64,000 bases of DNA from Pseudanabaena frigida (GTDB taxonomy: Bacteria > Cyanobacteriota > Cyanobacteriia > Pseudanabaenales > Pseudanabaenaceae). Every line of letters starts with the position of its first letter. Positions within the stretch are counted from its first letter, which is position 1. A model generated the notes under the pieces. It did no database searches, was not told where the DNA came from, and saw only the letters and a program-made list of their open reading frames with translations. The stretch covers positions 62,001-126,000 of the forward strand of contig QBML01000014.1 of the NCBI GenBank assembly GCA_003242085.1. The letters run 5' to 3'. This document shows positions 3,544-29,980 of this stretch, piece by piece. The position numbers and the translations under genes were made by a program.

Positions 3544-3582
3544 ATTATCATGAAAATACAGTAATGTTTTCCGCTAGGCTTC

Positions 3583-6500
3583 ATGAGTATTTTCCATAGG
3601 CGATCGCCATTTCCCAATATTTCTCTTCGCTGGATAATGGTTGTTCCGTTTGTGGTGCAAATTGTTGGTGCTGTGGGATTAGTCGGGTATCTGTCTTATC
3701 GAAGCGGACAAGAATCAGTTCATAAACTTGCGAACAGGCTTCAGACTGAAATCAGCACCCGTGTTACTGAAAAAATAACAACTTATCTGCAAACTATTGA
3801 CCAGACTAATAAAAACAATATCAGTGCTTTACGTCGTGGGGTATGGAGCTTTGATGACTTCTCTAGCCAAGAACGACAAGCATGGGAGCAAATGCAGCTT
3901 AGCTCTCTGTCTCCAATCACAATTATTGGCTTTGGCAATCCTCAAGGAGGACATCGGGCTGTAGAGATACTAAAAAATGGCTCGTTTGTAATTCGTGCAG
4001 ATCCGAATGGTGGAGGCGATTACATCAGCTTTACTACTAATGCCGATGGTTCGAGGGATAAAGTAACGCAAACTGCGATTAATTTTGATTCACGACAGCG
4101 CCCTTGGTATCAAGTCGCAGTGCAGGCAAAAAAAGCGGCTTGGACAAGTGTTTACCCACATATTTACACGGGAGAACTGTTAGTTGCTCTTGCCGAGCCA
4201 GTCTATGACCTCAAAAATGGGAACCTGTTGGGAGTTACCTACGGACTTCGCCCCCTTGATGAAATAAGTCGTTTTTTGCAAAGCATTGATATTAGGTCTG
4301 GTGCAGTCTTTATCATGCAGCGCGATCGGACATTAGTGGCAACTTCCATGCCACAGAAGCCATATCAACTATCTCAAAATGCTAAAGATCAAAAATTACT
4401 AAAAGCCAGCGATAGTGAAAGTCCGATCGTTAATAATGCCACCAAACATTTACGCGATCGCTTTGGAGATTTAGTAAATATCGATCGCTTAACCCAATTT
4501 GAGTTTTCGCTCAATAACGAGTGGCAAAAAGTCCAAGCAGTTCCAATCCGCGATCGGAATGGATTGGACTGGTTACTTGTAGTCGTACTTCCTGAATCGG
4601 ATTTTGCGGCAGAAATTCAGTCCAACAAAAACTGGACTATTTTATTGTGCGGGCTGACTCTAGTTGTAGTAACTGGGCTTAGCGTACTCACATCAAGATG
4701 GATTGCCCAGCCAATTTTGCGATTAAGTCGAGTTAGTGCGGCGATGGCGCAGGGTGATTGGCAAGAGCCTTTACCAGAAGATAGTAAAATCACGGAAGTG
4801 AAGACCTTGATTGGAAGTTTCCGTCATATGGTGGTTAATCTTCAGGAGGCAAATAGAATACAGATCGACTATGCCCTAGATCTTGAACAACAGATTACTA
4901 AAAAAACAGTAGCTTTGACAGAAGCGAAACGCATTGCCCGTATGGGCAGCTGGGAGATTGATGTAGCGACTGGAACGCTCTCTTTTTCAGATGAAATGTT
5001 CCGTATCATGGGAGTCGATCCCGCGTTAGAATTACCCAAATATCCAAATATTTTTGACGGTATTCTGCCAGAGGATCGAGTCAAACTTCGTACGGCAATA
5101 GAAGAGGCGATCGCCTATGGCAAATCCTATACCGTAGAATACGGAAGATATTTACCCGATCGCTCGATTTGCTATGTTATCTGTCGGGGAGAGGCAGTCT
5201 GCGATGAACAGGGGCAAGTAGTTAAGCTCATTGGTACGGTTACAGATATTAGCGAACAGCAAGCGGCAATGCGCGAACTCAAACGCACTGAAGAAGCACT
5301 CCGAAAAAGTGAAACAAAATTTCAAAAAATTGCCTTGTCATTACCAGGAGTTATCTATATCACAGTGCAGCGTGCAGATGGTTCCCATTATTTTGAATAT
5401 GTTAGCTCGGGAGTTGAAGATCTAAATGAACTAACTGCCGAACAGGTACTTCAAAATCCCAAAATCATTGGCGAACAATATTTTCCCGAAGATCGGGATA
5501 GCTTTAATCAAGCAATTGCTCATAGCATTGCAAACAATTTACCCTTGCAACATGAATGGCGGATTATTACTCCTTCAGGAAAACTGAAGTGGGTACAGGT
5601 AAATTCTCGTCCCGAGCAGTCAGAACATGGCAATGCTAATAGCGACAGACGAGAAAATGGAGAGGTTAAACGTTATGGCATTATTCTTGACATTAGCGAT
5701 CGCAAGCAAGTTGAACTTGCTTTACAACAGAGCGAAGAGCGTTTTCAGACCTTGCTAAAAAATATACCAGGAATGGTTTACCGCTACTGTCCATCTGATG
5801 ATGGGGTTGGTGCTTTTACTTATGTTAGTTCTGGCTCCTTCGCCTTACTAGAGCTAGAACCAGCGCAAATTCTCCAAGATGCAAATTCTATGTGGAGTTT
5901 GATCCATCCCGATGATTTAGCTTCGGTGCAAGCATCAGTTGCCACTGCTGTTCAAAATGTTGCTACTTGGCAACATGAATGGCGGATGATTATGCCAATA
6001 TCGCGGCAACTGAAGTGGATTCAAGGCAAATCTAGACCGCAAAAAACACCAGAGGGAATGGTCTGGGATGGATTGTTTATCGACATAAGCGATCGTAAAA
6101 AGGCGCAAATCCATTTAAATCAAGCCCTAAAAGAATTAAATTATTTGATCGAAAATTCACCACTAGCGACTATTCGCTGGGATCGCAACTTTAGGGTGGA
6201 ATATTGGTCAAAGCAAGCCGAGCAAATATTTGGATGGAAGGCAGAAGAAGTCATTGGCAAAAATATGCATGATTGGCGATTTATCTTTGATGAAGATCTC
6301 GATTATGTCAATCAAATTAAAGTTCGTTTACTATTGGGAGAAAATAACGCTTGCCAGAATCGGAACTATCATGAGGATGGCTCAATCGTTTATTGTGAGT
6401 GGTATAACTCGGTACTACTTGATGAGTCAGGAAACTTGATTTCTATGCTCTCCCTCGCTCACGATATTACTGGACGCAAACATCTAGAACAAGAATTAAT

Positions 6501-8088
6501 CAAAAACCGCGATTTGCGAGAACTGATTTTCAATGAGTCCAGTGATGCCCTGTTCTTAGTAGATGCTGATACTCTCCTAACAGTGGACTGCAATCATTAT
6601 GCTGTAGAACTTTTTGAGGTGAACAGTAAAGCTGATTTGATTAATATTGAAGGTCACATCCTCCAAAAGCGGCAGTTTACCCTTGAAGAACTTGACACTA
6701 TTCAACGAGAAATTAATCAAAAAGGCTACTGGAGCATGGAAGTAGAATATGTCACTTTTCGGGGTCGTGAATTTTGGGGAGATATTTCTGCCAAGCAAAT
6801 TGCCTTCGGAGAGAAGCTCTTTAATTTAGTTCGAGTTGTGGATATTAGCGATCGCAAACAAATCGAAATCTCACTAGCCAAAGCAAAAGCCGCCGCAGAA
6901 GAAGCAACTAGAGCTAAGAGCGCATTTCTGGCTAGTATGAGCCATGAAATTCGTACTCCGATGAATGGTGTAATGTGGATGGCACAACTTCTAGAAACTA
7001 CTTCGCTTACAGAAGAACAGAAAGATTTTGTGCAAACCATCCGAGATAGTGGCGAATCTCTTTTAAGCATCATTAATGATATTCTTGACTTCTCTAAAAT
7101 TGAGTCTGGAATGTTAGAGATAGAATTAAACAGTTTTGACTTAGATGAGGTTGTTCGTGGTGTCTGCAAATTGCTGGAAAGCCAAGCATTCGCTAACAAA
7201 ATTCAGCTCGAATATACATTTGAGCTTGATATCCCCAGTCCACTTATCGGTGATTGCAATCGCCTTCGTCAGATCCTAATAAATTTAGTCGGAAATGCCA
7301 TTAAATTTACTCAACACGGTCGGGTTTCTATCTCGGTTAGTGGCAGATTGATGGAATCCGATCGATATCAGCTTAAATTTGCGATCGCTGATACAGGTAT
7401 TGGTATTAGAGGCGATCGGATTGATAAGCTGTTTCAACCATTCACTCAAGCTGATTCCTCAATTAGTCGTCAGTATGGAGGGACTGGACTTGGTTTGGTC
7501 ATCAGTAAACGTCTTATTGAATTGATGGGTGGCACAATTTGGGTGAAAAGCCTTGGTCAAGTTGGTGGCAATCCAGATTTGGAATGGCAATCTGCACCAG
7601 ATGTACGGGTAACACAACAAGGCTCTACATTCTATTTTACAATTGTTGTAACCACTAATCCAAATAGCAAACTAACCAAGAGTAAATCTGTTAAGCATTT
7701 TCTATTTGATTACACATTAGCTGAAAAATTCCCCTTACGCATTCTGTTAGTTGAAGACAATAAAGTCAATCAAATGGTCGCGCGGTTACTGCTCAAAAAG
7801 CTAGGATATCAAATTGACATAGCTGAAAATGGCTTAGAAGCCATAAAAGTGGTACAAGAAAATTCCTACGATTTGATCTTAATGGATATACAAATGCCTG
7901 AAATGGATGGATTGACAGCTGCCAAATTTATTAGATCGAGACTGATGAATCAGGTACGGATTGTTGCTATGACTGCTGATGCTATGCCCGAAGATCGGCA
8001 AGCCTGTTTAGAAGCAGGTATGAATGACTACATCAGTAAACCCATAAATGTTCAAGAAATTGTGCGGTTAGTTTCTTCTGTAAGTTAG
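3583..8088 (+). CDS. hybrid sensor histidine kinase, CACHE-HAMP-PAS x5-HisKA-HATPase-REC
   Basis: This 1501-residue inner-membrane kinase has TM1 at about 15-42, a dCACHE periplasmic sensor up to about 345, TM2 at about 349-375 and HAMP at about 373-427. Five PAS domains follow (starting near 443, 578, 720, 853 and 978), most ending in DISDRK-type linkers. The HisKA box has phosphoacceptor His1121 in SHEIRTPMNG. The HATPase has its N box (LVGNAIKF) and G box (GGTGLGL), and the receiver carries Asp1435 in LMDIQMPEMDG. All catalytic residues appear present. It lies 39 bases after the broken cyclase gene, whose sensor half it shares, and is probably a tandem duplicate given a different output. 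The ligand is unknown; dCACHE domains usually bind small metabolites. Confidence 0.92.
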   Translation: MSIFHRRSPFPNISLRWIMVVPFVVQIVGAVGLVGYLSYRSGQESVHKLANRLQTEISTRVTEKITTYLQTIDQTNKNNISALRRGVWSFDDFSSQERQAWEQMQLSSLSPITIIGFGNPQGGHRAVEILKNGSFVIRADPNGGGDYISFTTNADGSRDKVTQTAINFDSRQRPWYQVAVQAKKAAWTSVYPHIYTGELLVALAEPVYDLKNGNLLGVTYGLRPLDEISRFLQSIDIRSGAVFIMQRDRTLVATSMPQKPYQLSQNAKDQKLLKASDSESPIVNNATKHLRDRFGDLVNIDRLTQFEFSLNNEWQKVQAVPIRDRNGLDWLLVVVLPESDFAAEIQSNKNWTILLCGLTLVVVTGLSVLTSRWIAQPILRLSRVSAAMAQGDWQEPLPEDSKITEVKTLIGSFRHMVVNLQEANRIQIDYALDLEQQITKKTVALTEAKRIARMGSWEIDVATGTLSFSDEMFRIMGVDPALELPKYPNIFDGILPEDRVKLRTAIEEAIAYGKSYTVEYGRYLPDRSICYVICRGEAVCDEQGQVVKLIGTVTDISEQQAAMRELKRTEEALRKSETKFQKIALSLPGVIYITVQRADGSHYFEYVSSGVEDLNELTAEQVLQNPKIIGEQYFPEDRDSFNQAIAHSIANNLPLQHEWRIITPSGKLKWVQVNSRPEQSEHGNANSDRRENGEVKRYGIILDISDRKQVELALQQSEERFQTLLKNIPGMVYRYCPSDDGVGAFTYVSSGSFALLELEPAQILQDANSMWSLIHPDDLASVQASVATAVQNVATWQHEWRMIMPISRQLKWIQGKSRPQKTPEGMVWDGLFIDISDRKKAQIHLNQALKELNYLIENSPLATIRWDRNFRVEYWSKQAEQIFGWKAEEVIGKNMHDWRFIFDEDLDYVNQIKVRLLLGENNACQNRNYHEDGSIVYCEWYNSVLLDESGNLISMLSLAHDITGRKHLEQELIKNRDLRELIFNESSDALFLVDADTLLTVDCNHYAVELFEVNSKADLINIEGHILQKRQFTLEELDTIQREINQKGYWSMEVEYVTFRGREFWGDISAKQIAFGEKLFNLVRVVDISDRKQIEISLAKAKAAAEEATRAKSAFLASMSHEIRTPMNGVMWMAQLLETTSLTEEQKDFVQTIRDSGESLLSIINDILDFSKIESGMLEIELNSFDLDEVVRGVCKLLESQAFANKIQLEYTFELDIPSPLIGDCNRLRQILINLVGNAIKFTQHGRVSISVSGRLMESDRYQLKFAIADTGIGIRGDRIDKLFQPFTQADSSISRQYGGTGLGLVISKRLIELMGGTIWVKSLGQVGGNPDLEWQSAPDVRVTQQGSTFYFTIVVTTNPNSKLTKSKSVKHFLFDYTLAEKFPLRILLVEDNKVNQMVARLLLKKLGYQIDIAENGLEAIKVVQENSYDLILMDIQMPEMDGLTAAKFIRSRLMNQVRIVAMTADAMPEDRQACLEAGMNDYISKPINVQEIVRLVSSVS

Positions 8089-8101
8089 CGCTATAGTGCA
8101 A

Positions 8102-8177
8102 TATAGCAATCCTAAATGATTTTTAGGTTTCGCCTCAGCAATTCCAAAAATCTACAAATGACTTAGGATTGCTATAT
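8102..8177. repeat. short inverted-repeat element, family A
   Basis: A 76-bp element has ends that are inverted copies of each other: tatagcaatcctaaatgatt on the left against the complement of aatgacttaggattgctata on the right (17 of 20 agree). It contains no coding capacity. A second copy with the same ends lies at 51839-51929 and a lone end at 783-802. It has the layout of a miniature inverted-repeat element; no clear target-site duplication was seen. Confidence 0.65.
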
Positions 8178-8186
8178 ATAATAACT

Positions 8187-8347
8187 GATGTTACGTGGAA
8201 GGAATTTCTGCGATAGCGGAAGCCTAGGGTTGGCAAGGGGGCACAGCCCCTAAAGAATCTAAATTATTTAGGTGATTGCCATCCTCCTGTGGTTGCTCTG
8301 TTTAGCAGTTCAGAAAAAGATTTATTATTTACGTTCCACGTAATATT
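8187..8347. mobile_element. MITE-like element with TTACGTGGAA ends, family B
   Basis: About 161 bp are bounded by TTACGTGGAA at 8191-8200 and its complement TTCCACGTAA at 8334-8343, directly beside the family A element. The interior has no open reading frame. The right end, including the A/T-rich stretch inside it, is closely repeated at 46717-46747 at the 3' end of the photolyase gene. The parent transposase is not in the window. MITE status is inferred from the terminal repeats, the small size and the second copy. Confidence 0.6.
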
Positions 8348-8374
8348 AGTAATAACTGTCTAAAACTGGTCTTA

Positions 8375-11323
8375 ATGAGCAACTCACCCAAGCGATCTCT
8401 ACTCTCAAATATTCCTCTACGCTGGGTGCTTGTCGTTCCATTTGTATTGCAAATTGTCGGAGCCGTTGGACTAGTCAGCTATTTATCCTATCGCAGTGGG
8501 CAGACTGCCTTAGAAAACATGGCTCATCAGGTCAGCAATCAAGCATCTAGTCGTGTCCGCGATCGCCTTAATATCTCTTTGCAAAACCAGAATCAAGCAA
8601 TCTTACTCAGTCAACGGGCGATCCAAAAGAGAACACTCAACCTGAAGGATTTTGAGCAAATGCAAAATCACTTTTGGCAGCAAATAAATTTATCTTTATC
8701 TTTAAGTTCAATTTACTTTGCTAACGAAAATGGAGAAATGATTGGTTATGGCAGAGTTCTTAGCCAAGAAGCGATCGAGCAGACTAAACAACTAACTGGG
8801 GAAAACTTAACTTTAGGTGAAAGTGTTTTAATAGAGACCACTTCCCAAGATCTAGCGCATCGCAAGTATTATTTAGTCGATGATCAGGGCAAAGCCAAGC
8901 AACTATATGGCAATTTACCAATCGATAATCGCACAACCATATGGTATCGTGCTGGTAAAGCAGCTCAACAACTAACTTGGTCACCAATTTATGTGTTCAA
9001 AGATGCACCAACTTTGGGCATAAATATAGTTGCGCCCATCAAAGATGAAGCTGGTAATTTTCAGGGCGTTTTGAGCAGCAGCATCCGATTGACAGCGATC
9101 GGCACTTTTTTAAGTCAGCTAAATTTTTCTCCATCTGGTCAAGCTTTCATCATCGATCGCGCTGGCGATCTAGTTGCCACATCCACATTAGAAACTCCCT
9201 ATATCCAAGTTAAGCAGGGAGAACCATTGCGACTGTCTGCTAGTCAAAGTAAAGATATCAGAACTAAGCTCGTTGCAGATCGACTACAGCAACAGTATGG
9301 CAATCTCAACCAAATTCAAACAAAAATTCGCTTAAAAATAGTAACTGAAGGAAATACGCTATTTGTTGAAGTTGCGCCTTATCAAGATGATTTTGGTTTG
9401 GATTGGTTATTAGTAACGGTAATTCCAGACTCTGACTTCATCACCGAAATTCAGACAAATGCCAAATGGACAATTCTATTGTGCGGATTGACCCTGCTAG
9501 CAATAATTGCGATCGGTGTGATTACTGCGCGGTGGATTACACGCCCAATTTTGAAATTAAACCAAGTCAGCGAGGCAATAGCCAAGGGGGATTGGCAAGA
9601 ACCTCTACCAGAAGATCAAACGATCGCTGAACTCAAGGCTCTATCGGTTTCTTTCAATTTAATGGCAACTCAAGTTCATCAATCTTTCGATCGAGTTGAG
9701 ACAGAACTACTCGAGAACAAACACTTTCTACAACAAATAACCGATCATTCAGCCCAAATTCTCTATATCTTAGATCCAAATGTTTGGGTTAATTTATATA
9801 TAAATCGCCAGTCCATCGATATTTTGGGCTATACACCTGAAGAATTTCAGCAAGGAGGTTCGCAGTTTCTTCAGAGTATCTTACATCCTGATGATATCCC
9901 TTTGCTATTGAGGAATATGGATTATTGGCAAACTGCAAAAGATGATGAAGTCTTAACCACTGAATATCGAATGCGGCACAAAAACGGTGATTGGGTTTGG
10001 TTGCGATCGCGAGAAGTGGTCTTTGCGAGAAATGAGCACCATCAAGCGAGCAAAATTTTGGGAACGGCTCAAGATATTAGTAATCGCAAACAGATCGAGA
10101 TCGCTTTAGCGGAAGCCAAAGAAACCGCAGAGGCGGCTAATAAAGCCAAAAGTGAATTTCTAGCTAACATGAGTCACGAACTTCGCACCCCGATGAATGG
10201 TGTGTTGGGAATGGTGCAGATTCTCTCAACTACCAAGCTTACAGAACAACAACAAAGTTTTGTAAAAACGATCCGAGATAGTGGTGATGCACTTTTGACT
10301 GTAATTAATGACATCTTAGACTTTTCTAAGATCGAATCAGGTATGTTGGAAATAGAACCAAGTAATTTTGTCTTAGAAGATGTAATTAGGTCGGTCTGTA
10401 CTCTATTGCATAGTCAAGCGATCGACAAACAGATCGATCTCCAATATGCCATCAGCCCCGTTATCCCAACTACAATTTTCGGCGACCATACAAGACTGCG
10501 CCAGATACTACTAAATATTGTTGGAAATGCGATTAAATTTACCCAATACGGTCAGGTTTCCATCTCAGTTAATAGTCGATTATTATCTCAACCTAATCAG
10601 TATGAATTAAGTTTTGAGATTGCGGATACAGGTATTGGCATCACAGGCGATCGCATTGACAAGCTGTTTCAACCATTTACCCAAGCTGATGCTTCCATTA
10701 GTCGGAAGTACGGAGGCACTGGGCTTGGATTGTCAATTAGCAAGAGTCTAGTGGAGCTAATGGGTGGCACAATCTGGGTCAAGAGTGGTAACCAAATTGG
10801 TGGGAATCCTCCATCAATTTGGAGATTGCAGCTCAATAACAGCTCGGTCAGTCATGGTTCGACATTTTATTTTACGATCGGCGTATCAACCAGTTCAGTG
10901 ACTGAGCAGCCGCTAGGTTTTTTATTGGAGCAGATGATGATTGACAACAAAATGGCTGAAAAATTCCCGTTACGCATTTTGCTAGTTGAAGATAACAAAG
11001 TTAATCAAATGGTTGCCAACTTAATGCTCGAACAGCTAGGATATTGCGCCGATGTTGCTAATAACGGTTTAGAAGCAGTACAAGCAGTTCAATCTCAATC
11101 CTACGATCTGATTATGATGGATTTGCAAATGCCTGAAATGGATGGATTGACTGCGGCAAGATTAATTCGTTCAAAGCTAATGAGTCAAGCGCGGATTATT
11201 GCGATGACAGCCGATGCCACACCTGAAGATCGTCAAATATGTCTAGAAGCTGGCATGGATGATTACATTAGTAAACCCATTGATATGCAAGAAATTATGC
11301 AATTAGTCTCAACGACAAAGTAG
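8375..11323 (+). CDS. hybrid sensor histidine kinase, CACHE-HAMP-PAS-HisKA-HATPase-REC
   Basis: The 982-residue product is the third tandem copy of the TM-CACHE-HAMP receptor. Its N-terminus keeps the conserved block seen in the other two (VVPF-LQIVGAVGLVSYLSYRSGQ). TM2 lies near residue 365, followed by HAMP, one PAS domain, HisKA with His601 in SHELRTPMNG, an HATPase with GGTGLGL, and a receiver with Asp916 in MMDLQMPEMDG. The kinase-receiver half is closely similar to that of the preceding gene, which has four additional PAS domains. Two inverted-repeat elements lie between the two genes, so they may not share a transcript. The complete active sites argue for a functional kinase. Confidence 0.92.
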   Translation: MSNSPKRSLLSNIPLRWVLVVPFVLQIVGAVGLVSYLSYRSGQTALENMAHQVSNQASSRVRDRLNISLQNQNQAILLSQRAIQKRTLNLKDFEQMQNHFWQQINLSLSLSSIYFANENGEMIGYGRVLSQEAIEQTKQLTGENLTLGESVLIETTSQDLAHRKYYLVDDQGKAKQLYGNLPIDNRTTIWYRAGKAAQQLTWSPIYVFKDAPTLGINIVAPIKDEAGNFQGVLSSSIRLTAIGTFLSQLNFSPSGQAFIIDRAGDLVATSTLETPYIQVKQGEPLRLSASQSKDIRTKLVADRLQQQYGNLNQIQTKIRLKIVTEGNTLFVEVAPYQDDFGLDWLLVTVIPDSDFITEIQTNAKWTILLCGLTLLAIIAIGVITARWITRPILKLNQVSEAIAKGDWQEPLPEDQTIAELKALSVSFNLMATQVHQSFDRVETELLENKHFLQQITDHSAQILYILDPNVWVNLYINRQSIDILGYTPEEFQQGGSQFLQSILHPDDIPLLLRNMDYWQTAKDDEVLTTEYRMRHKNGDWVWLRSREVVFARNEHHQASKILGTAQDISNRKQIEIALAEAKETAEAANKAKSEFLANMSHELRTPMNGVLGMVQILSTTKLTEQQQSFVKTIRDSGDALLTVINDILDFSKIESGMLEIEPSNFVLEDVIRSVCTLLHSQAIDKQIDLQYAISPVIPTTIFGDHTRLRQILLNIVGNAIKFTQYGQVSISVNSRLLSQPNQYELSFEIADTGIGITGDRIDKLFQPFTQADASISRKYGGTGLGLSISKSLVELMGGTIWVKSGNQIGGNPPSIWRLQLNNSSVSHGSTFYFTIGVSTSSVTEQPLGFLLEQMMIDNKMAEKFPLRILLVEDNKVNQMVANLMLEQLGYCADVANNGLEAVQAVQSQSYDLIMMDLQMPEMDGLTAARLIRSKLMSQARIIAMTADATPEDRQICLEAGMDDYISKPIDMQEIMQLVSTTK

Positions 11324-19513: not shown

Positions 19514-21148
19514 ATGTTTAAGGTTAAAAGTTCAGTTGTTCGAAATCTAAGTTATCTATCTTTCTTGGCAACGTTATCTGTATCGCCTAGTCTGGTTCGC
19601 GCTGAGACAACGCCATCTCTAACAAATAACGATCCTTATAAAGCTATACAGTTAAAGACCGAGCCCCGAACGACAGCGCAAAATGTCACGTCAGTATCAC
19701 AGTTGAGTGATGTTAAGCCAACTGATTGGGCTTTTACAGCTTTGCAATCACTAGTTGAGCGTTATGGATGCATCGCTGGATATCCCGATCGCACCTATCG
19801 CGGCAGCCAAGCAACTAGCCGTTATGAATTTGCCGCAGGTCTGAATGCTTGCCTAGACAAAATCAATGAAATCATTTCCGCAGGTCTAGCTGATAAGGTT
19901 AGCAAAGAGGATTTGGCAACCCTGCAAAAACTGCAAGAAGAATTTGCAGCTGAACTTGCCACTTTAAGAGGTCGTGTTGATGCTCTGGATGCTAAAACTG
20001 CCAAACTAGAAGCACAGCAGTTTTCGACTACCACAAAACTTTCTGGAGAAGTTATTTTCTCTCTAACAGCAGGTAGCGGCGGTCCAACCAATGGCAGATC
20101 GAATGTCACATTGGGCAATCGTACACGCCTAGTTCTTAATACTAGCTTTACAGGAAAAGATCTTCTGAGAACAAGACTTGAAGCAAGCAATAATCTAGCT
20201 GCTTCTAGTACTGGCACTGCAAATAGCCTGTCTGGCTTGTTAGGCACAAATACAGCCAGAATTGGCCCCGGTCCCGCAACTTCTTTTATAGACAACTCCT
20301 TTGCTCTCAGCCTACTTGATTACAAGTTCCCTATTTTTGATAATAAGGTAACTCTATACGTTGCTCCTGTTAGTTTTCCTGACGAGTTTTTTACCGTACT
20401 TTCACCAGTAGCTAGCAATGGTCAAGGTTCAATTTCTCGCTTCGGTCGCTTTGATCCCCTAATGCGGATTGCGGGGACATCTTCTTTGTTTGCGTTTGAT
20501 TGGAAGGTATCCGATCAATTTAAAATCCAAGCAGGTTATGGTTCCTCTTCTCCTGCTAATCCTACTCCTGGCGGACAGGGTGGACTATTCGGTGGTTCGA
20601 CTATTGCTCTAGTTCAGCTTTTATTCAAGCCTGCTGATAATTTGGATGCTTCTATTACGTATACCAACACCTATCATCAGTCCAACTCTTTAGGTACTGG
20701 TTTAGTTAATACCGCAACAGAATCGATTAGTGCTGCTGGAGTCACCTCTATTAGAGCTAATTCAATTGGAGGCAACTTGGCTTGGAAGGTCACTCCTAAA
20801 CTCACTTTCCACACTTGGGGAACTGTGATTTTTGCAGACTCAGTAAATAATTCTGCATCTACAACCTTTACAAGTTGGATTACAGGGTTGACCCTCAACG
20901 ATCTGTTTAGCGAAGGTAGTGCGGGCAGTATTCTATTTGGTCAACCAATTAATCGTACTTCTGCAAGTGGTTTAGCTACTTTAGGAGCCGTTAATACAAC
21001 TCCCTACCATTTAGAGCTCTTCTATCGCTATCGAGTCAATAAGAATATTAGTATTACTCCAGGCGTTTTCTGGGTATTCAATCCTGAAGGAGTCACTGCT
21101 AATCCTACTGTAACTGTAGGTGTTATCCGCACCACATTTTCGTTCTAA
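19514..21148 (+). CDS. SLH-domain outer-membrane porin (SomA/OprB type)
   Basis: The 544-residue product has a signal peptide (residues 1-31, ending VRAE), an SLH domain at about 55-115 (SDVKPTDWAFTALQSLVERY, then GYPDRTYRG and SRYEFAAGLNACLD), a coiled-coil stretch (about 130-170) and a C-terminal beta-barrel ending in phenylalanine. This is the layout of the major cyanobacterial outer-membrane porins: SLH binds the peptidoglycan-linked polysaccharide and the barrel passes small solutes and ions. Related proteins are annotated as iron-uptake porins; I cannot confirm the solute. It is followed by two palindromes that isolate it from the next operon. Confidence 0.93.
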   Translation: MFKVKSSVVRNLSYLSFLATLSVSPSLVRAETTPSLTNNDPYKAIQLKTEPRTTAQNVTSVSQLSDVKPTDWAFTALQSLVERYGCIAGYPDRTYRGSQATSRYEFAAGLNACLDKINEIISAGLADKVSKEDLATLQKLQEEFAAELATLRGRVDALDAKTAKLEAQQFSTTTKLSGEVIFSLTAGSGGPTNGRSNVTLGNRTRLVLNTSFTGKDLLRTRLEASNNLAASSTGTANSLSGLLGTNTARIGPGPATSFIDNSFALSLLDYKFPIFDNKVTLYVAPVSFPDEFFTVLSPVASNGQGSISRFGRFDPLMRIAGTSSLFAFDWKVSDQFKIQAGYGSSSPANPTPGGQGGLFGGSTIALVQLLFKPADNLDASITYTNTYHQSNSLGTGLVNTATESISAAGVTSIRANSIGGNLAWKVTPKLTFHTWGTVIFADSVNNSASTTFTSWITGLTLNDLFSEGSAGSILFGQPINRTSASGLATLGAVNTTPYHLELFYRYRVNKNISITPGVFWVFNPEGVTANPTVTVGVIRTTFSF

Positions 21149-21248: not shown

Positions 21249-21698
21249 ATGACAACGATCGCTAAACAAGATAAAGATCTCGCAACGGTCATGAAAGGAG
21301 ATGGTGTTGCCAAAGCTAATACCCATGACAGCATCAATCGGATTTTTAATCGGTTAGAAGATATCAAAAAAGAGATGGGCGAACCATCTTGGTCGGTGCG
21401 TCTCATTTATACTGACATGATGAGTGCTGTAATGATTTGCCAAAAACCTGGTGAAAGTAATCGCACGCATTATCATGCCAATGAAGATGAATGGTGGGTG
21501 GTAATGGAAGGCGAACTAGAGTGGGATGTTGATGGTCATGGAGCCTACCGCGCTAAAAAAGATGACATCATTTTTGTACCGCGCAAGGTAATTCATAATA
21601 TTCGTGTTATTGGCGATCGGCCATCGATTCGTTTGGCGATCGGTAAGCCCGATGTCAATCACATTTTTGTTGAGGATCACGTTTTTGCTGAGAATTAG
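21249..21698 (+). CDS. cupin-domain protein
   Basis: The 149-residue product has a single conserved-barrel cupin domain. Metal ligands are visible in RTHYHANEDEWWVVMEGELEW (the histidines and glutamate of cupin motif 1) and in FVPRKVIHNIRV (the histidine of motif 2). Cupins of this size act as sugar isomerases, dioxygenases or ligand-binding proteins, and the sequence does not decide between these. A GGAG ribosome site precedes the ATG. It is the first gene of a same-strand run and lies 14 bases from the SDR gene, so the two are almost certainly cotranscribed and may act on the same compound. Confidence 0.85.
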   Translation: MTTIAKQDKDLATVMKGDGVAKANTHDSINRIFNRLEDIKKEMGEPSWSVRLIYTDMMSAVMICQKPGESNRTHYHANEDEWWVVMEGELEWDVDGHGAYRAKKDDIIFVPRKVIHNIRVIGDRPSIRLAIGKPDVNHIFVEDHVFAEN

Positions 21699-21712: not shown

Positions 21713-22474
21713 ATGACTAAACTCCATGAATTTACCAATGATTTTAATGAGAAAGTAGCAATTATTACTGGTGCGAGTAGTGGCATTGGTCAAGCTGTTG
21801 CGGAAGCGATCGCCAGTTATGGAGCGTATACTGTCTTTATCTCTCGTAGTGGTGCGGAGAAAATAGTCGCAGAATTAAATTCAAGAGGTAAGTCAGCACT
21901 ATCGCTCCCTTGCGATGTATCCGATGAACTTCAAGTCAAAAACGCGATCACCAAAGTTTATCAGAAATATGGGCATATAGACATTCTGATTAACAATGCT
22001 GCCATCAACCAAATCGCCAAGATTGAAGATATCTCTCTTGAAGATTGGAATAAAGTAATGGCAACGAATCTAACCAGTCAGTTTCTATGTTGCAAGCATG
22101 TAGTTCCCATCATGAAGCAACAGAAGAGCGGCAAAATCATTAATGTCTCCTCAATTGCAGGACACTTTAGGAGCAAAATATCAGGAATTCATTACGTCAC
22201 TTCTAAGGCAGGAGCGATCGGCTTTACCAGACAGCTTGCTTACGAGCTAGCCCCCTTTCAAATCAATGTTAATGTGGTTTGCCCCAGTCAGACCTATACT
22301 CCGATGCTAGCTGCGACTTTGCCGCCATTAGAAGAACAAAAACTGATCGACTCCATCCCCTTAGGCAGAATTGCTTCAATGGATGAACAAGTAAATGTAA
22401 TTCTATTTCTAGCATCTCATCTTTCTAGTTATATGACGGGGGCAATCATCGATGTAAATGGAGGGCAGTTTTAA
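21713..22474 (+). CDS. short-chain dehydrogenase/reductase
   Basis: The 253-residue product is a classical SDR. The cofactor-binding TGASSGIG lies near residue 19, NNAAI near 92 (the NNAG position), the catalytic serine in NVSSIAGHF, and the Tyr-Lys pair in HYVTSKAG. The C-terminus (GAIIDVNGGQF) matches FabG-like members. It oxidises or reduces a hydroxyl/keto group using NAD(P); the substrate is unknown. Its 14-base spacing from the cupin gene and nearby transport and 2-hydroxyacid dehydrogenase genes suggest metabolism of a small hydroxy acid or sugar rather than fatty acid synthesis. Confidence 0.92.
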   Translation: MTKLHEFTNDFNEKVAIITGASSGIGQAVAEAIASYGAYTVFISRSGAEKIVAELNSRGKSALSLPCDVSDELQVKNAITKVYQKYGHIDILINNAAINQIAKIEDISLEDWNKVMATNLTSQFLCCKHVVPIMKQQKSGKIINVSSIAGHFRSKISGIHYVTSKAGAIGFTRQLAYELAPFQINVNVVCPSQTYTPMLAATLPPLEEQKLIDSIPLGRIASMDEQVNVILFLASHLSSYMTGAIIDVNGGQF

Positions 22475-23650: not shown

Positions 23651-24589
23651 ATGCCGAAACTACTGATCAGCACTTCGTCTTTCGATGTTAAAAACAATCA
23701 GGTATTGCAAAATCTTCAAGATCAAGGATTTGAAATAGTTTTAAATCCACATGGTAGAAAACTTAAAGAGGAAGAGGTGTTAGAACTTCTTAATGATGAT
23801 GTTGTTGGCATGATCGCAGGAGTTGAGCCACTAACGCGCAATGTATTATCTTCCGCAAAGTCTTTGAAAATAATTTCGCGCTGTGGTATTGGAACTGATG
23901 CTGTCGATCTAGTCGCTGCTGAAGAAATGGGAATTCCAGTTGACATCACTCCAACCGCAACGGTCATTGCTGTAGCTGAATTAACTGTGAGTTTGATTTT
24001 GTCGACTTTGCGAAGGACGTTTGAAGCCTCTCGTAACCTTCGACAAGGAGAGTGGAAACCACTAATGGGGAGATTGTTAGCATCTCAAGTGGTGGGCGTA
24101 ATCGGTTATGGAAGAATTGGAAGGCGGGTAAGCACGCTTTTAGGGGCTTTTGGGGCGCAAACGATCGCTTACGATATTTTCTGTGGCGATTCATTATTTG
24201 CTGATACTGTCTGCTCGACCTCCTTGGATGAAGTACTCGAAAAATCTAACATAATCACACTGCATATTCCCTATACACCTGAAAATCATCATTTTGTCGG
24301 TAGCAGTTTTATCAATAAGATGAAACCTGGCAGTATTTTAGTGAATGCTGCTAGAGGTGGGATCGTTGATGAAGATGCTTTGTACGATGCTTTGGTATCG
24401 GGACATTTAGCTGGTGCAGCCCTCGATACTTTTGAACAGGAGCCATATTCTGGAAAGCTGCTTACTCTTCAACAAGTTATCTTGATTCCCCATATGGGAT
24501 CCTATGCCAAAGAAGCAAGAATGCAGATGGAACAAGAGGCGGCCCAAAATCTATTTAATAGACTCGTAGAAATTGGTTTGGCTAAATAA
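23651..24589 (+). CDS. D-2-hydroxyacid dehydrogenase, phosphoglycerate-dehydrogenase type
   Basis: The 312-residue product has the two-domain fold of NAD-dependent D-2-hydroxyacid dehydrogenases. Visible are the substrate-domain motif SRCGIGTDAVDL, the Rossmann motif VIGYGRIGRRV, the catalytic arginine in VNAARGGIVDEDAL, the glutamate in ALDTFEQEP and the histidine in IPHMGSYAKEA. It lacks the regulatory ACT domain of the long SerA enzymes, so it probably acts on another 2-hydroxy or 2-keto acid. Genes of this type often accompany a HAD phosphatase in sugar-acid or surface-glycan clusters, and here a HAD gene follows directly. The last codons run into a predicted RNA pseudoknot. Confidence 0.9.
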   Translation: MPKLLISTSSFDVKNNQVLQNLQDQGFEIVLNPHGRKLKEEEVLELLNDDVVGMIAGVEPLTRNVLSSAKSLKIISRCGIGTDAVDLVAAEEMGIPVDITPTATVIAVAELTVSLILSTLRRTFEASRNLRQGEWKPLMGRLLASQVVGVIGYGRIGRRVSTLLGAFGAQTIAYDIFCGDSLFADTVCSTSLDEVLEKSNIITLHIPYTPENHHFVGSSFINKMKPGSILVNAARGGIVDEDALYDALVSGHLAGAALDTFEQEPYSGKLLTLQQVILIPHMGSYAKEARMQMEQEAAQNLFNRLVEIGLAK

Positions 24590-24672: not shown

Positions 24673-25329
24673 ATGATGAAATATGATGCAATCGTGTTTG
24701 ATTTTGACGGTGTATTAGCTGAATCAGTGGATGTCAAAACAAAAGCTTTTGCAGCTTTGTATGCCGAATATGGCGATCGCATCGTGGAACAAGTGATGGA
24801 ATATCATCTACTTCATGGTGGAGTATCACGCTTTGAGAAGTTTCGTTACTATCATGAAGTCTTACTTGGCAAAACTTTAACTAAAGATGAGGAGATCCAA
24901 CTTGGGGATCGCTTTTCGCAATATGTTGAGGATGCAGTAGTAAATTCTGCATATGTGACTGGAGCCTATGAGTTTCTAGAAAATTTTTATAAATTAATAC
25001 CTTTATTTGTGGCTTCTGGAACTCCAGATGCAGAATTAAAACGCATTGTGTCTCGACGTAACATGAACCATTATTTTGTCTCTGTTCATGGTTCTCCTGC
25101 CAAAAAAGGGGATATTATTCAAGGTGTTTTGAAAAAGTTTGGTTTCGATCCCAATCGCGTTTTAATGGTCGGTGATGCGATCGCTGATTATGAAGGTGCG
25201 ATCGTTGCAGGTGTAAAATTTATAGGTAGAGTTATGCAATATCCTGAGACTTATCCTTTTAGTGCAAATACTTCAGTTTTGCCAGACCTAGCCGACCTTG
25301 AGGCATTGATTACTAGTCATTCTCATTAG
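24673..25329 (+). CDS. HAD-superfamily phosphatase
   Basis: The 218-residue product has all HAD motifs: the nucleophile in VFDFDGVLAES (motif I), VASGTPDAEL (motif II), the lysine of SPAKKGDI (motif III) and MVGDAIADYEGA (motif IV). The alpha-helical cap between motifs I and II is of the phosphoglycolate phosphatase/beta-phosphoglucomutase kind. It probably dephosphorylates a small sugar or acid phosphate. The ATG at 24673 has no good ribosome site of its own; the upstream mini-frame at 24660 does, so translational coupling is possible. It follows the hydroxyacid dehydrogenase by 83 bases. Confidence 0.9.
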   Translation: MMKYDAIVFDFDGVLAESVDVKTKAFAALYAEYGDRIVEQVMEYHLLHGGVSRFEKFRYYHEVLLGKTLTKDEEIQLGDRFSQYVEDAVVNSAYVTGAYEFLENFYKLIPLFVASGTPDAELKRIVSRRNMNHYFVSVHGSPAKKGDIIQGVLKKFGFDPNRVLMVGDAIADYEGAIVAGVKFIGRVMQYPETYPFSANTSVLPDLADLEALITSHSH

Positions 25330-25386: not shown

Positions 25387-26757
25387 ATGCGTCGTCGTAA
25401 GTTTAATCAGTTGTCCTTATTTTTAGCGGGATTAGGTCTGGTATCCTGTAGCGATTCTGCTGTCTTAAATTATCGAGCTCCAGGAAAAAATTCCAAGTTT
25501 CGAGTCTGGTGGATTCAAAGCTTTTACCCTGCTGAAACTGAAGCACTTTCACAGATTGTCGCAGACTGGGAAAAAAAGAATAATACTAAGGTAGAAATTA
25601 CTTTTTATAACGATGGCTCGGTAAACCGTGATGCTGAAAATGCGCTCAATAATGGAAATCCGCCTGACATCTTATTTAGTAATACTGCCGAGTTTTCTCT
25701 TTACCCGCGATTAGCATGGCAAAATAAATTAGTAGATGTTTCCGATGTTGTCGAACCTGTTAAAGATTTATTTAGCCCAATCGCCCTTAAAGCAGTGTCA
25801 TATCAGAATGGGGCAACAAACAAACGTAGCTACTATGCTGTCCCGATCGCTCAGTTATCCGCTGGGTTACATTATTGGCGTGATTTACTTGCTGATGTCG
25901 GATTAAGCGATACAAATATTCCTAGAGATTGGGATGGCTTTTGGAAATTTTGGGAAACTGCTCAAGATGCGGCAAAAAGTAAGGGCAAAAAAGATGTCTA
26001 TGGCATCGGGTTGCCAATGTCAGCTGAAGCCACTGATACTATCTTCATGTTCGAGCAATTTCTCACAGCTTATGGAGTGGATCTAATAAATGATAACGGT
26101 CAACTCCAAGCTGACGATCCCAAAAATCGACAGGGTATTGTCGATGCTCTGAAAAAATATGCAGGATTCTATAAGAGCGAACACGTTCCTCCCAAAGCAA
26201 TTCAATGGTCAGATGCTGACAACAATCAGGTATTCCTTAGCCGCAATTCATTTATGACGGCGAACCCTGGGCTATCAATACCTGCTTCTCAACAGTTTGA
26301 TACCAATGTCTATACCAAAAAGTTAGTAACAACTGAATGGCCACTTGCACCAAGCGGTAAGCCACTTAATTATTTAGTTGCGGTTAAACAGGCAGTCATA
26401 TTTGCTGATTCTCCCAACCAAGCTATGGCTAAAAACTTGTTGTCACATATTATTCAACCCAGTAATCTAGTTACTTATCTAAAAGGAGCTGGCGGAAGAT
26501 ATTTTCCAACTATGCCAAAATTGTTGGAGGATCCTTACTATAAAGACTCGCAAGATCCTCACATTTTAACGGCAACCAAACAATTTCAGAATACTAGTTC
26601 TTTTTACACAGCCCAGAATGCTGCTTATTCAGAAGTCGGTGCAAAACAAATTTGGGGGCAAGCGATCAGATCGGTGGCTAAGGGTACGGTTACACCCGAG
26701 CAAGCAGCAGATACAGCGATCGCACAAATTAAAAATATTTTCTCTCAATGGAAATAG
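25387..26757 (+). CDS. ABC-type (sugar family) extracellular solute-binding lipoprotein
   Basis: The 456-residue product begins with a lipoprotein signal: MRRRKF, a hydrophobic core and a lipobox-like LVSC that puts the lipidated cysteine at about residue 21. The rest is a family 1 solute-binding fold of the maltose/sugar type (WWIQSFYPAETEAL near the N-terminus, GNPPDILFSN, and the closing helix PEQAADTAIAQIKNIFSQW). No ABC permease or ATPase lies nearby. The next gene, 55 bases downstream on the same strand, encodes a CACHE-sensor histidine kinase. That arrangement suggests a sensory role, presenting the bound ligand to the kinase, though an uptake role with unlinked permeases remains possible. 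Confidence 0.88.
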   Translation: MRRRKFNQLSLFLAGLGLVSCSDSAVLNYRAPGKNSKFRVWWIQSFYPAETEALSQIVADWEKKNNTKVEITFYNDGSVNRDAENALNNGNPPDILFSNTAEFSLYPRLAWQNKLVDVSDVVEPVKDLFSPIALKAVSYQNGATNKRSYYAVPIAQLSAGLHYWRDLLADVGLSDTNIPRDWDGFWKFWETAQDAAKSKGKKDVYGIGLPMSAEATDTIFMFEQFLTAYGVDLINDNGQLQADDPKNRQGIVDALKKYAGFYKSEHVPPKAIQWSDADNNQVFLSRNSFMTANPGLSIPASQQFDTNVYTKKLVTTEWPLAPSGKPLNYLVAVKQAVIFADSPNQAMAKNLLSHIIQPSNLVTYLKGAGGRYFPTMPKLLEDPYYKDSQDPHILTATKQFQNTSSFYTAQNAAYSEVGAKQIWGQAIRSVAKGTVTPEQAADTAIAQIKNIFSQWK

Positions 26758-26812
26758 TAGCGGTGCAAGAACCCAAAAATTACAGCATTATTCAGTAAAG
26801 TGAGGCTAGAAG

Positions 26813-29800
26813 ATGATTAACCTAATTAAAAAACGATTGCTGCTGCAACTTGTGGGCTATTTCTCGATTTTGTCGATTGTCACAGTTTTGCTCGTAGCTG
26901 TTAGTGCCAACGTTCGCAGTCGTGATGCTCTAAGGCGATCGGTGATCGATCGCTTAGATGTTGCCACATCGCTGAAAGAGTCTCAGGTTAATCAATGGGT
27001 TGATAATCAAAGACGTGATGTTATTTTGATGACTCAACTACCCGATCTGCTGATCAATTCTGAAGTTCTTTTTAGTAAAGAACGCGAATCTACCGAATTT
27101 AAAGCTGCGATTGAATTGCTAAGAAAGTTTATGGCGGACATATCGACTGTAAAGCCGAATATCCGCCAGATTTCCATCCTGACTAATAACGGGATTACGA
27201 TTGTTTCCACCGATAAACTTAAAGAAGGAAAGTACCAACCTCTCGGAAATACAACAACTTATTTCACGCGCGACCAATCCCGTATTATCGTGCCTAACTT
27301 TTACATTTCACCAATTTCAGGTAAAGCAGCGATGACTTTTGCTGCGCCCTTATCTAATAAATCAGGCGATCGCATTGGAGTAGTAGCAGTCGATCTCGAT
27401 TTACAGGGTGTGGATGATATTATTCGTCAAAACACAGGTTTAGGTAGTAGTGGTGAAACCTATATAGTAGGAAGATTAGCTACTAAAAATATATTGCTTT
27501 CAGGTGGGGGATCTGATAACCAAGAACTTGCAAAAGATATTAAAAGCGAAGGAATTGCCGCAGCAGCTCTAGGTAAAGATGGTGAAGGTCTGTATCGAAA
27601 CTATAAAAATGTCCCTGTCTTGGGAAGTTATATCTGGATCGATAACCTAGATTTGGCGCTACTTGCCGAAATATCGCAGGCGGAAGCTTTTGAACCTGCC
27701 GATCGCCTAGCTCGTGATATTTTATTGATTGGATTAAGTTCCGCAGGTATTCTGTTGACTGCCGTATATTTGATCGCTCGTCGGATTTCACAACCAATTT
27801 TGGCGATCGCTGATGCGGCTAACCAAGTCTCTGGCGGTAACTTAAACTCTCAAGCTCCCGTTCTGACTGAAGATGAAATTGGGATTTTAGCGATCGCCTT
27901 CAATCAAATGACATCGCAACTTAAAGCTTCTGGCGAGCAGTTAGCGGACTATAGTCGCACGCTAGAACAAAAAGTCGAACAGCGCACCAGTGAAATCAAA
28001 GCCATTATCGATAACATGGTCGATGGACTAGTAGTAGTTGATGGTGAAGATCGAATTACTCAGTTTAACCCAGCGATCGCGGGGATGATTGGGGTCAGCA
28101 GTAAGGCTATTTCCAGAGCTGAGAACTATAGCGAAATATTTAAGGGTGATGAGATTGCAAATCTAGTTGCAAGTACGAGAGAGAACCCTAGACAAGTTTT
28201 TAGTGCGGAGTTTGCACTACCCGATCGCCGAACAGGTAAAGCTGTTGCTACTTCTATCTTTAGGGAAGTTGATGGCTCTGCTTGGTTTGGCGATGTAGTC
28301 CGTAGTGGAGGTGTTGCTTCAAGTCCCGATGCCACTGAAGTCGATGAGGTATCGGAGTCATCTGCATTAGGAGTAAACTATTTAGGAACTGTCATCTTAA
28401 TTCGCGATATTACGGCTGAGAAAGAAGTAGATCGCATGAAGACAGATTTCATCTCAACGGTATCTCATGAGTTGCGAACACCGCTTACATCTGTACTAGG
28501 CTTTGCGAAGTTAATCCAGAAAAAGCTTGATGAATCTATCTTTCCACTTATTCAGAGCGATGATAAAAAAGTTAAACGCAGTGTGCGTCAGGTCTCAGAA
28601 AACATTGAAATCATTGTATCTGAGGGCACAAGACTGACAAAACTGATTAACGAAGTATTAGATGTTGCCAAAATCGAAGCTGGTAAAATGCAGTGGAATA
28701 TGGATTCATTGGCAATTACAGAAGTTATAGATCGGGCTTTTTCCGCGACTTCGGCATTATTCGAACAGAAAGAACTAGCTCCTATCCGTGAGATCGAATC
28801 AGATCTGCCTAATATCTATGGTGACAAAGATCGCTTGATTCAGGTTGTAATTAATTTGATTTCTAATGCCGTGAAATTTACTGAGCGAGGTAGCATTACC
28901 TGCCGAGTTAAGCGGGTAGATCAATCAATTATGGTCAGTGTCGTCGATCAAGGTGTTGGTATTTCGGAATCCGATCAACCTAAGGTATTTGAAAAATTCA
29001 AACAAGTGGGAGACACGCTCACTGATAAGCCGCAAGGGACAGGGTTAGGTCTGCCAATTTCTAGGGAAATCATTGAGCATCATGGTGGCAAGATCTGGGT
29101 CGAAAGCGAACTTGGTAAGGGTAGTACATTCTCTTTTACACTCCCAATTGCTACAGCGCCAAGTGGTACAGAACAAATTCCCTCAATTAATTTTGAAGTG
29201 CTGATCGAGCAACTCAAAAAAAGAGTGATGTTTGATAGTAATTCAGACGATCAAACTAATACTGGATCGCCAAAAAATATTTTGGTGATTGATGACGATC
29301 CGAGTATTAGAAGTTTGCTCAGACAGGAATTGGAAGCAAAGGGGTATGTTGTTAGAGAAGCAGAGAATGGTCAGGAGGCGATCGTCAAGGTACGCGACTC
29401 TCGCCCCGACTTGATCACTCTCGATATTATTATGCAGGGAATTAATGGCTATGATGTTGCTTCTATTCTGAAATCCGATCCCGCAACTTTAGACATTCCT
29501 ATTATTATTGTGTCCGTTCTAGATGATAAGAATAAAGGCTTGCATTTAGGAATTGATAGCTATGTGACTAAGCCCCTTGATATGGTCATATTAATGCGAG
29601 AAGTTGAGTTGTTACTGACTAGTAAAACTTCAAGTGGGAAGAAGGTTTTGGTTGTTGATGATAATTTTGTTTCGATTAGTTTACTAGTAGAAATGCTACA
29701 AAATCAGGGTTTCTTGCCCTCAACTATTTCTCCACAAGATGACTTGCGTGCTAGCGTAATCGAACTCCAACCAAATGTAATTATCGCTAGTATAAAATTA

Positions 29801-29872
29801 GCCGAGCAAGTTCAATCACTCCGCGCAGAGAAGAATATGGAACATATTCGCTTTTTGCTGGTTTCTGAATAG
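26813..29872 (+). CDS. CACHE-HAMP-PAS sensor histidine kinase with two receiver domains
   Basis: The 1019-residue membrane kinase has TM1 at about 10-32, a periplasmic dCACHE domain to about 295, TM2 at about 300-325 and HAMP to about 375. Then come a PAS domain (about 390-520, split by an insert near SPDATEVDE), HisKA with His552 in [11 protein letters not shown], and an HATPase with GTGLGLPIS. The first receiver has its phosphoacceptor Asp871 in ITLDIIM. A second, C-terminal receiver starts VLVVDDNF but has alanine-serine where the aspartate should be (VIIASIK) and stops early, so it is a truncated pseudo-receiver. A GAGG ribosome site precedes the ATG. It probably senses the ligand of the solute-binding protein encoded just upstream. 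Confidence 0.9.
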
Positions 29873-29884
29873 GCAAATTCAAGT

Positions 29885-29980
29885 CCAAAGAGAAGAGGAT
29901 GCGCATAGCACATCCTCTTCTCTTTGGGAAACCCAAGAAGTGAGGCGCGGCGCTTCGCGCCGCGCCTCACTTCTTGGGTT
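29885..29980. terminator. two adjacent long palindromes between the convergent kinase and purH genes
   Basis: The first (29885-29927) has about 20-bp arms (ccaaagagaagaggatg) and an ATA loop with one mismatch. The second (29930-29980) has perfect 24-bp arms (aacccaagaagtgagg) and a TTC loop. The right flank ggctgactgtagctata (29986-30002) resembles the end of family D elements. Either can terminate transcription from both sides. Confidence 0.8.

Follow-up and report, generated by a model that had tools for sequence, protein, structure and literature searches.

What does a sugar-type solute-binding lipoprotein do when its gene is followed by that of a sensor kinase and not by the genes of an ATP-binding cassette (ABC) importer? 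This question is raised by a locus of the cyanobacterium Pseudanabaena frigida, in a stretch of 64,000 nucleotides that we call the window (positions 62,001 to 126,000 of contig QBML01000014.1, assembly GCA_003242085.1, forward strand). The open reading frame of the lipoprotein (positions 25387-26757 of the window, 456 amino acids) and that of the kinase (26813-29872, 1019 amino acids) are both on the plus strand and are separated by a 55-base gap, so that coordinates and strand agree with the layout described in an earlier note on this DNA. The same note had suggested that the binding protein is the ligand reader of the kinase, and this suggestion is supported by the anatomy of the two proteins, the conserved adjacency of their genes, their co-occurrence, their equal copy numbers within the order, their co-divergence and the lack of an apparent dependent permease. 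For these reasons, we consider it probable that the two genes encode one dedicated receptor, in which the lipoprotein is teamed with the dCache domain of the kinase and does not serve an ABC importer as its uptake subunit.

The lipoprotein has a signal peptide and a lipobox (LVSC) ending in Cys21, a residue present in every one of 64 aligned sequences, 56 of which fit the strict lipobox pattern. In a six-frame search of the genome, PF01547 (SBP_bac_1) scored 70.4 bits against a curated cut-off of 26. A default hmmscan of the protein did not report this family, and thus annotation pipelines may overlook lipoproteins of this kind; the family assignment rests on the six-frame search, on NCBIfam and PDB sequence matches, which are mostly sugar-binding proteins, and on fold matches. 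The structure model, with a mean predicted local distance difference test (pLDDT) score of 90.6, has the two-lobed MalE-type fold and resembles oligosaccharide-binding proteins over residues 35-454; one match was 5ci5 (Z 39.0, root-mean-square deviation (rmsd) 2.9, 387 residues aligned). All fold matches listed are sugar-type or putative sugar-type binding proteins, and they span proteins for alpha-glucosides, beta-glucosides and sulfoquinovosides. Among them is a sugar-type binding protein already known from a cyanobacterium, Synechococcus MITS9220 (6wpm), with which no kinase is mentioned in the available part of its description. The assignment to a sugar family is therefore upheld by the PF01547 score, the lipobox and the predicted fold, and can be narrowed to the MalE/CUT1 type.

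The second gene encodes a transmembrane hybrid sensor histidine kinase, and the periplasmic CACHE domain ascribed to it was found as a dCache_1 domain (residues 39-284; 26927-27664) lying between hydrophobic segments at residues 13-31 and 300-318. It is followed by HAMP (residues 320-371; 27770-27925), PAS (395-434; 27995-28114), HisKA (542-624; 28436-28684, with SHELRTP at 551), HATPase_c (670-780; 28820-29152) and receiver (823-930; 29279-29602) domains, all read from the plus strand, and the combination of HisKA, HATPase_c and receiver is that of a hybrid kinase. The protein ends in a short receiver-like tail (approximately residues 943-1019; 29639-29869), which gave no profile match and in which a serine stands, as judged by eye, at the expected phospho-acceptor aspartate. 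dCache_1 scored 55.5 bits against a cut-off of 45 and a tandem Cache fold was also matched, while a PDB sequence search with residues 1-324 returned nothing at E<=0.001. The NCBIfam matches of the kinase, of which 25 of 160 are listed, are far below their cut-offs and fall mainly on the kinase core.

The co-occurrence of the two proteins in other genomes, proposed in the earlier note as a check, was found at both scales considered. Strong matches to both proteins are present in the same 25 of 38 genomes of the order and the other 13 have neither, with the weak binding-protein matches in G006 and G037:C100 (22 bits) left out of this count; in the phylum sample, both are present in 24 of the 25 genomes with the binding protein. 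The order genomes hold 32 strong copies of the binding protein and 32 of the dCache protein, both being duplicated in seven genomes. Weak dCache matches (118-167 bits, in proteins of 784-801 amino acids) from G000, G009, G015, G019, G023 and G030 were not counted among the strong copies. The second copies form a divergent group, with 36-38% identity to the window protein, and their kinases share the dCache domain and differ in their cytoplasmic parts. The dCache protein is the next gene in 31 of the 32 order loci (the 31 of relatives and that of the window). The sole exception, L054 in G001, is at a contig end, and the dCache kinase of this genome is on another contig; both L054 and its duplicate L126 stop about 420 bases past the binding protein, within a partial frame of 125 amino acids that was not labelled dCache. 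The metabolic genes upstream of the pair, which the earlier note had named as possible targets of its control, were seen only in the close group: the HAD hydrolase is present in 19 of the 32 order loci and the D-2-hydroxyacid dehydrogenase in 18, the latter being found in none of the 25 phylum-sample loci, whereas the pair itself is phylum-wide.

Across the phylum the distribution is patchy, the binding-protein profile matching 25 of 386 genomes drawn evenly from it. The dCache profile matches 29 genomes, 24 of them common to those 25, which gives a dCache match in 24/25 genomes with the binding protein versus 5/361 of the others (Fisher p 3e-32, a value not corrected for kinship). At most four or five candidates were scored per genome in these searches, so that phylum copy numbers may be low. 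The dCache protein was the next gene in 23 of the 25 phylum-sample loci, with at least 142 bits in each, and the conserved pairing on which the earlier proposal depended thus holds in the order and in the phylum alike. These 25 loci (L211-L235) come from 22 of the 25 genomes, since G000, G026 and G029 were counted in the order set, and a partial match, G394:C213, was left out. A separate, pattern-based scan yielded 79 loci of named origin, with Pseudanabaena, Roseofilum, Okeania, Trichodesmium, Nostoc, Microcystis, Leptolyngbya and Synechococcus among the sources and those of Pseudanabaena the closest; the dCache protein is next in 67, a contig end in 2 and something else in 10, seven of which are the Nostocales loci considered below. 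The three sets sum to 136 loci and partly overlap. When the next gene was counted, unlabelled reading frames shorter than 140 amino acids and tandem copies of the binding protein were passed over, with gaps of up to 507 bases; neighbours were labelled with small profiles built from few seeds of the same loci, and with a motif pattern for ABC ATPases, and Pfam was run on four sets of ten proteins (the window binding protein twice). That two unrelated genes came to be neighbours by chance, an idea for which nothing in favour was found, can be dismissed: dCache_1 is matched 20 times in the 5.4 Mb of the source genome, and yet a dCache protein is encoded next to the binding protein in 23 of the 25 phylum loci.

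Some observations concern the composition of these loci and the further dCache proteins of the genomes. At least two binding-protein genes or pieces stand in tandem before a single dCache protein in L083, L085, L087, L090, L091, L109, L218 and L222, as if several readers served one sensor. One more dCache protein of this subfamily, distant from that of the pair, is encoded in the source genome (G000:C10:47112-48083, L244; 152 bits, 798 amino acids), around which no obvious binding protein was seen by eye from the first residues of the neighbours; weak dCache matches of similar size occur in G009, G015 and G019, genomes without the binding protein. Three more dCache_1 matches are in the window itself, at about 1375-9200 (contig C5:63375-71199), in frames of 740, 1507 and 1005 amino acids.

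If the binding protein and the dCache domain are interacting parts, the divergence of the former is expected to follow that of the dCache domain more closely than that of the kinase core. By the mirror-tree approach we compared 43 pairs, taken from 105 loci, in which the kinase core is complete and the binding protein has 430 amino acids or more. The correlation was 0.83 between binding protein and dCache domain and 0.59 between binding protein and kinase core of the same protein, with partial correlations of 0.73 and -0.10, respectively. In the 30 distant pairs, outside the close group, the values were 0.78 for the dCache domain versus 0.37 for the kinase core (bootstrap difference 0.27 to 0.54), and none of 2000 permutations of these pairs attained 0.78.

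The proteins that carry the dCache domain vary in what stands behind it. Hybrid kinases of about 800 to 1320 amino acids (L105, L110, L121) occur alongside kinases of about 690 amino acids without receivers (L087, L102). L081 has two dCache proteins in tandem, neither of which carries a kinase domain and one of which has a peptidoglycan-binding domain; behind this one stands the other (L081:13039-14328), whose end is formed by a HAMP-like stretch and a charged tail of helical appearance (ITETDYFQSLRQKAKQL). dCache proteins of 424-477 amino acids like the latter are also present in L106, L219 and L229. In the Synechococcus-type loci L133, L136, L231 and L232, proteins of about 330-340 amino acids with only the dCache domain are followed by cyclase genes, and Pfam confirms a class III cyclase in L133; the short dCache proteins of L122, L130 and L133 score below the Pfam dCache_1 cut-off. 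The class III cyclase protein has a long N-terminal region of its own in L133 (11385-14525), L136, L231, L232 and L233, and in L233 a dCache-only protein was not found. The best reading of these data is that the binding protein and the dCache domain form a conserved unit whose cytoplasmic output differs between cyanobacteria, and the inner, signal-sending half of the receptor appears to have been exchanged during evolution.

The fold of the dCache domain has to be weighed here. Its model (pLDDT 83.8) resembles, among others, the sensor domains of PscC and DctB (6mni, Z 17.9, rmsd 3.1, 240 residues aligned; 3by9, Z 16.7, rmsd 2.8, 223 aligned), and DctB structures with small ligands are among the matches, whereas in the present pair the binding protein is the proposed reader. 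Amino-acid-binding dCache domains (dCache_1AA) share the motif core R-x-W-Y, which is missing from all 51 aligned dCache rows, a looser pattern being found in 2 of them; this speaks for the binding protein as the reader. The kinase might also sense a small molecule directly, as dCache domains can do (PMC10104139), and as the likeness to the ligand-binding domains of DctB and PscC would allow; the binding protein would in this case be a co-regulated target, such as a scavenging protein produced upon kinase activation, with no contact between the two.

Several observations weigh against a dedicated receptor, and some of them would suit direct sensing. Adjacency without interaction is documented: some neighbouring binding-protein and kinase genes of P. 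aeruginosa encode proteins that showed no interaction (PMC11113362). Of the 44 dCache matches listed for the phylum, 13 are not near any binding protein of this family, and the domain occurs without the binding protein in G015, G168, G247 and G363 (115-192 bits) and in G291 (309 bits); G293 and G326, which are among the 24 shared genomes, have equally low dCache scores (140-143 bits). Conversely, the Nostocales loci L098-L101, L104, L107 and L139 have a binding protein without an adjoining dCache gene, in genomes that were not searched for an unlinked one; its neighbour there is a gene of the ROK family, an OppC-like permease is encoded further upstream, and the arrangement possibly represents a different use of the same binding protein. 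Other exceptions to the next-gene rule are L077, L088, L134, L233, in which the cyclase protein comes after the binding protein, and L235, in which the next gene encodes a protein of 806 amino acids with Peripla_BP_6 at residues 77-404 and hydrophobic segments near the C-terminus; the partial next gene of L134 resembles that of L235 at its start, as judged by eye. In L234 the binding-protein frame is broken. In the 8 kb around the binding protein there are permease-like genes in 1/25 phylum-sample, 16/79 scan and 9/32 order loci and ABC-ATPase motifs in 3/25, 5/79 and 4/32, neither being ever found in the gene that comes next on that strand; in L050 and L051 an ABC ATPase is encoded two genes behind the kinase. 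Finally, variation in the kinase core has other causes as well, which leaves the mirror-tree contrast suggestive and not a proof. However, direct sensing does not account well for a binding protein whose divergence tracks the dCache domain above the kinase core, which persists with it while outputs and other neighbours change, and for which no permease to feed is evident. We therefore regard it as unlikely, and a receptor formed by both proteins as the better explanation.

Another possibility is that the lipoprotein is an ordinary importer subunit that serves a permease encoded elsewhere, an outcome that would have contradicted the earlier proposal. The source genome has 29 permease-domain matches, and the 8 that were classified comprise one CUT1-like pair, resembling UgpA and UgpE, the rest being of the Pst, Cys and Pot types; no permease that evidently depends on the lipoprotein was found among these 8. 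The CUT1-type pair, on contig C55, would be a candidate, as no binding protein was recognised around it by eye from the first residues, and the share of permease matches classified leaves some room for others. However, a separate canonical binding protein is encoded at C11:30506-31786; its relatives occur in 33 of the 38 order genomes and those of the UgpA-like protein in 36 (both at E<=1e-30). G009, G015 and G019 have relatives of this permease and of the C11 protein and do not have the lipoprotein of the pair. We infer that the C55 permease has its partner in the C11 protein, and use of the lipoprotein by this permease is unlikely, as permease and C11 protein persist in genomes without it. 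Moreover, the lipoprotein has no permease or ATPase genes beside it, as an ABC sugar importer (CUT1) subunit would, and an ABC permease is the next gene in 0/25, 0/79 and 0/32 loci (0/136 over the three overlapping sets). An importer role therefore seems very improbable.

The surroundings of the pair do contain transport genes. The same-strand run to which it belongs consists of a cupin gene (21249-21698), a short-chain dehydrogenase (SDR; 21713-22474), a secondary carrier of the AEC/Mem_trans family (PF03547; 22535-23557), a D-2-hydroxyacid dehydrogenase similar to phosphoglycerate dehydrogenase (23651-24589), a HAD-family hydrolase (24673-25329), which ends 57 bases before the binding protein gene, and the binding protein and kinase genes, which close the run; successive gaps are of 14, 60, 93, 83, 57 and 55 bases. 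An OprB-type porin with an SLH domain (19514-21148, plus strand) lies 100 bases upstream. No ABC permease or ATPase was found among the reading frames and profile matches of the run, as the earlier note had stated. Its broader claim that no transporter is nearby was too strong, in view of the AEC carrier in the run and the OprB porin just upstream, and is true of ABC parts only.

The carrier invites one more alternative, in which it would be an unusual secondary transporter that depends on the binding protein, with the kinase sensing how far this transporter is occupied. AEC genes are near the pair in other cyanobacteria too: they are within 8 kb of the binding protein in 9/25 phylum-sample, 25/79 scan and 21/32 order loci, of which 6, 9 and 1, respectively, have the AEC gene directly next to it on that strand. 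The carrier of the run is also the only PF03547 match among those listed for the genome at E<=1e-8, where 5 of 14 first-look candidates were scored. However, 16 of the 25 phylum-sample loci have no AEC gene within 8 kb. To our knowledge, AEC carriers do not use binding proteins, which also counts against such a partnership, and we give it very little credence.

The carrier may bear on the nature of the ligand of the proposed receptor. The order LarA-like enzyme, AEC carrier, binding protein and dCache protein recurs in L079, L081, L122, L130, L133, L136, L220, L221 and L229; in the window the D-2-hydroxyacid dehydrogenase takes the place of the LarA-like enzyme, a member of the 2-hydroxyacid racemase family. 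Hydroxyacid chemistry near a sugar-type binding protein weakly suggests a carboxylated sugar or a glycoside as ligand, and the recurring AEC and LarA-like neighbours suggest a carboxylated sugar or other hydroxyacid derivative. A wider reading, which we advance tentatively, is that a receptor head, in which the MalE-like lipoprotein is combined with a dCache subfamily of its own, was joined to varied outputs, including a class III cyclase, and responds to such a compound released into the surroundings.

Past the kinase, the next gene is purH, in convergent orientation. Between the two, 12 bases beyond the kinase stop, is a hairpin of 20 pairs with 10 G-C pairs (29885-29927), which a terminator scan marks as terminator-like on the minus strand, that is, behind purH. 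Promoter-like sites were not enriched over shuffled sequences (17 versus a mean of 21.2), and terminator-like sites were hardly more numerous than in shuffles (8 versus 6.5).

The earlier note compared the pair with LuxP-LuxQ and ChvE-VirA, and the comparison stands for the logic and fails for the fold class of the binding protein. In LuxP-LuxQ a binding protein is found beside a hybrid kinase with a tandem PAS/Cache-like periplasmic part, which is the feature shared with the present pair. LuxP and ChvE belong to another fold class than MalE, LuxP being of the Peripla_BP type I, and since our lipoprotein is MalE-like the resemblance is one of logic only. A LuxP-like fold class was rejected for the lipoprotein on its MalE-type fold, and the genome has no PF13407 match at E<=0.001; the NCBIfam LuxQ match of the kinase, far below cut-off, covers residues 538-923, that is, the kinase core and receiver. 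In XylFII-LytS a sugar-binding protein is reportedly complexed with the extracellular part of a kinase, both the binding-protein family and the kinase architecture being different from those of the pair described here.

Closer relatives in working logic are CuaD-CuaS and GltB-GtrS. In Ruminiclostridium cellulolyticum a sugar-binding protein gene lies beside that of a sensor kinase, and CuaD binds the kinase and makes cellobiose use more efficient (PMC10384115, where XylFII-LytS is cited). The CuaD-CuaS-CuaR system switches on the genes of the ABC importer CuaABC, and CuaSR alone still perceives cellobiose (PMC10384115). As in that system, binding protein and kinase are encoded and conserved together in cyanobacteria, with the exceptions given above; that system has a separate regulator, CuaR, whereas the cyanobacterial kinase of the window is of the hybrid type, has a dCache domain and has no linked importer. 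In Pseudomonas aeruginosa, the sugar-binding protein GltB of the GltB-GtrS-GltR system is needed for kinase activation and binds the ligand-binding domain of GtrS with a dissociation constant (KD) of 0.1 uM (PMC7927077). GltB is described there as part of a transport operon, gltBFGK-oprB, whereas the cyanobacterial pair has no ABC importer attached and has an OprB porin nearby. Thus, what sets the pair apart from both systems is the absence of a linked importer, the dCache domain and the exchanged outputs. As far as can be judged from sequence, the case for it is stronger than adjacency alone would make it.

According to the evidence above, we propose a mechanism in which the lipoprotein, to judge from its lipobox, would be tethered to the outer side of the inner membrane, where its MalE-type cleft may capture a sugar-like ligand. 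The loaded lipoprotein would then dock on the dCache domain of the membrane protein encoded next to it, and docking could shift the dCache-HAMP-PAS signalling helix and with it the kinase/phosphatase balance of the hybrid kinase, as expected from its family.

By a count published in 2022, activation of a sensor kinase by a binding protein had been characterised in only about ten cases (PMC9602780), and in the titles and abstract beginnings of the matches listed in our literature search there was no cyanobacterial precedent for such a pair. Cyclases of the adenylate/guanylate type are not among the binding-protein-activated receptor types given in the available part of PMC9602780, and a cyclase controlled by a binding protein would, if true, be a new receptor class in that respect. 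If the receptor proposed here is real, phototrophs would own a dedicated machine for reading extracellular sugar-like molecules that is separate from their import, with evolution pointing to the dCache domain as the docking partner. The exchanged outputs would then be a natural experiment, in which one receptor head drives kinases and possibly cyclases.

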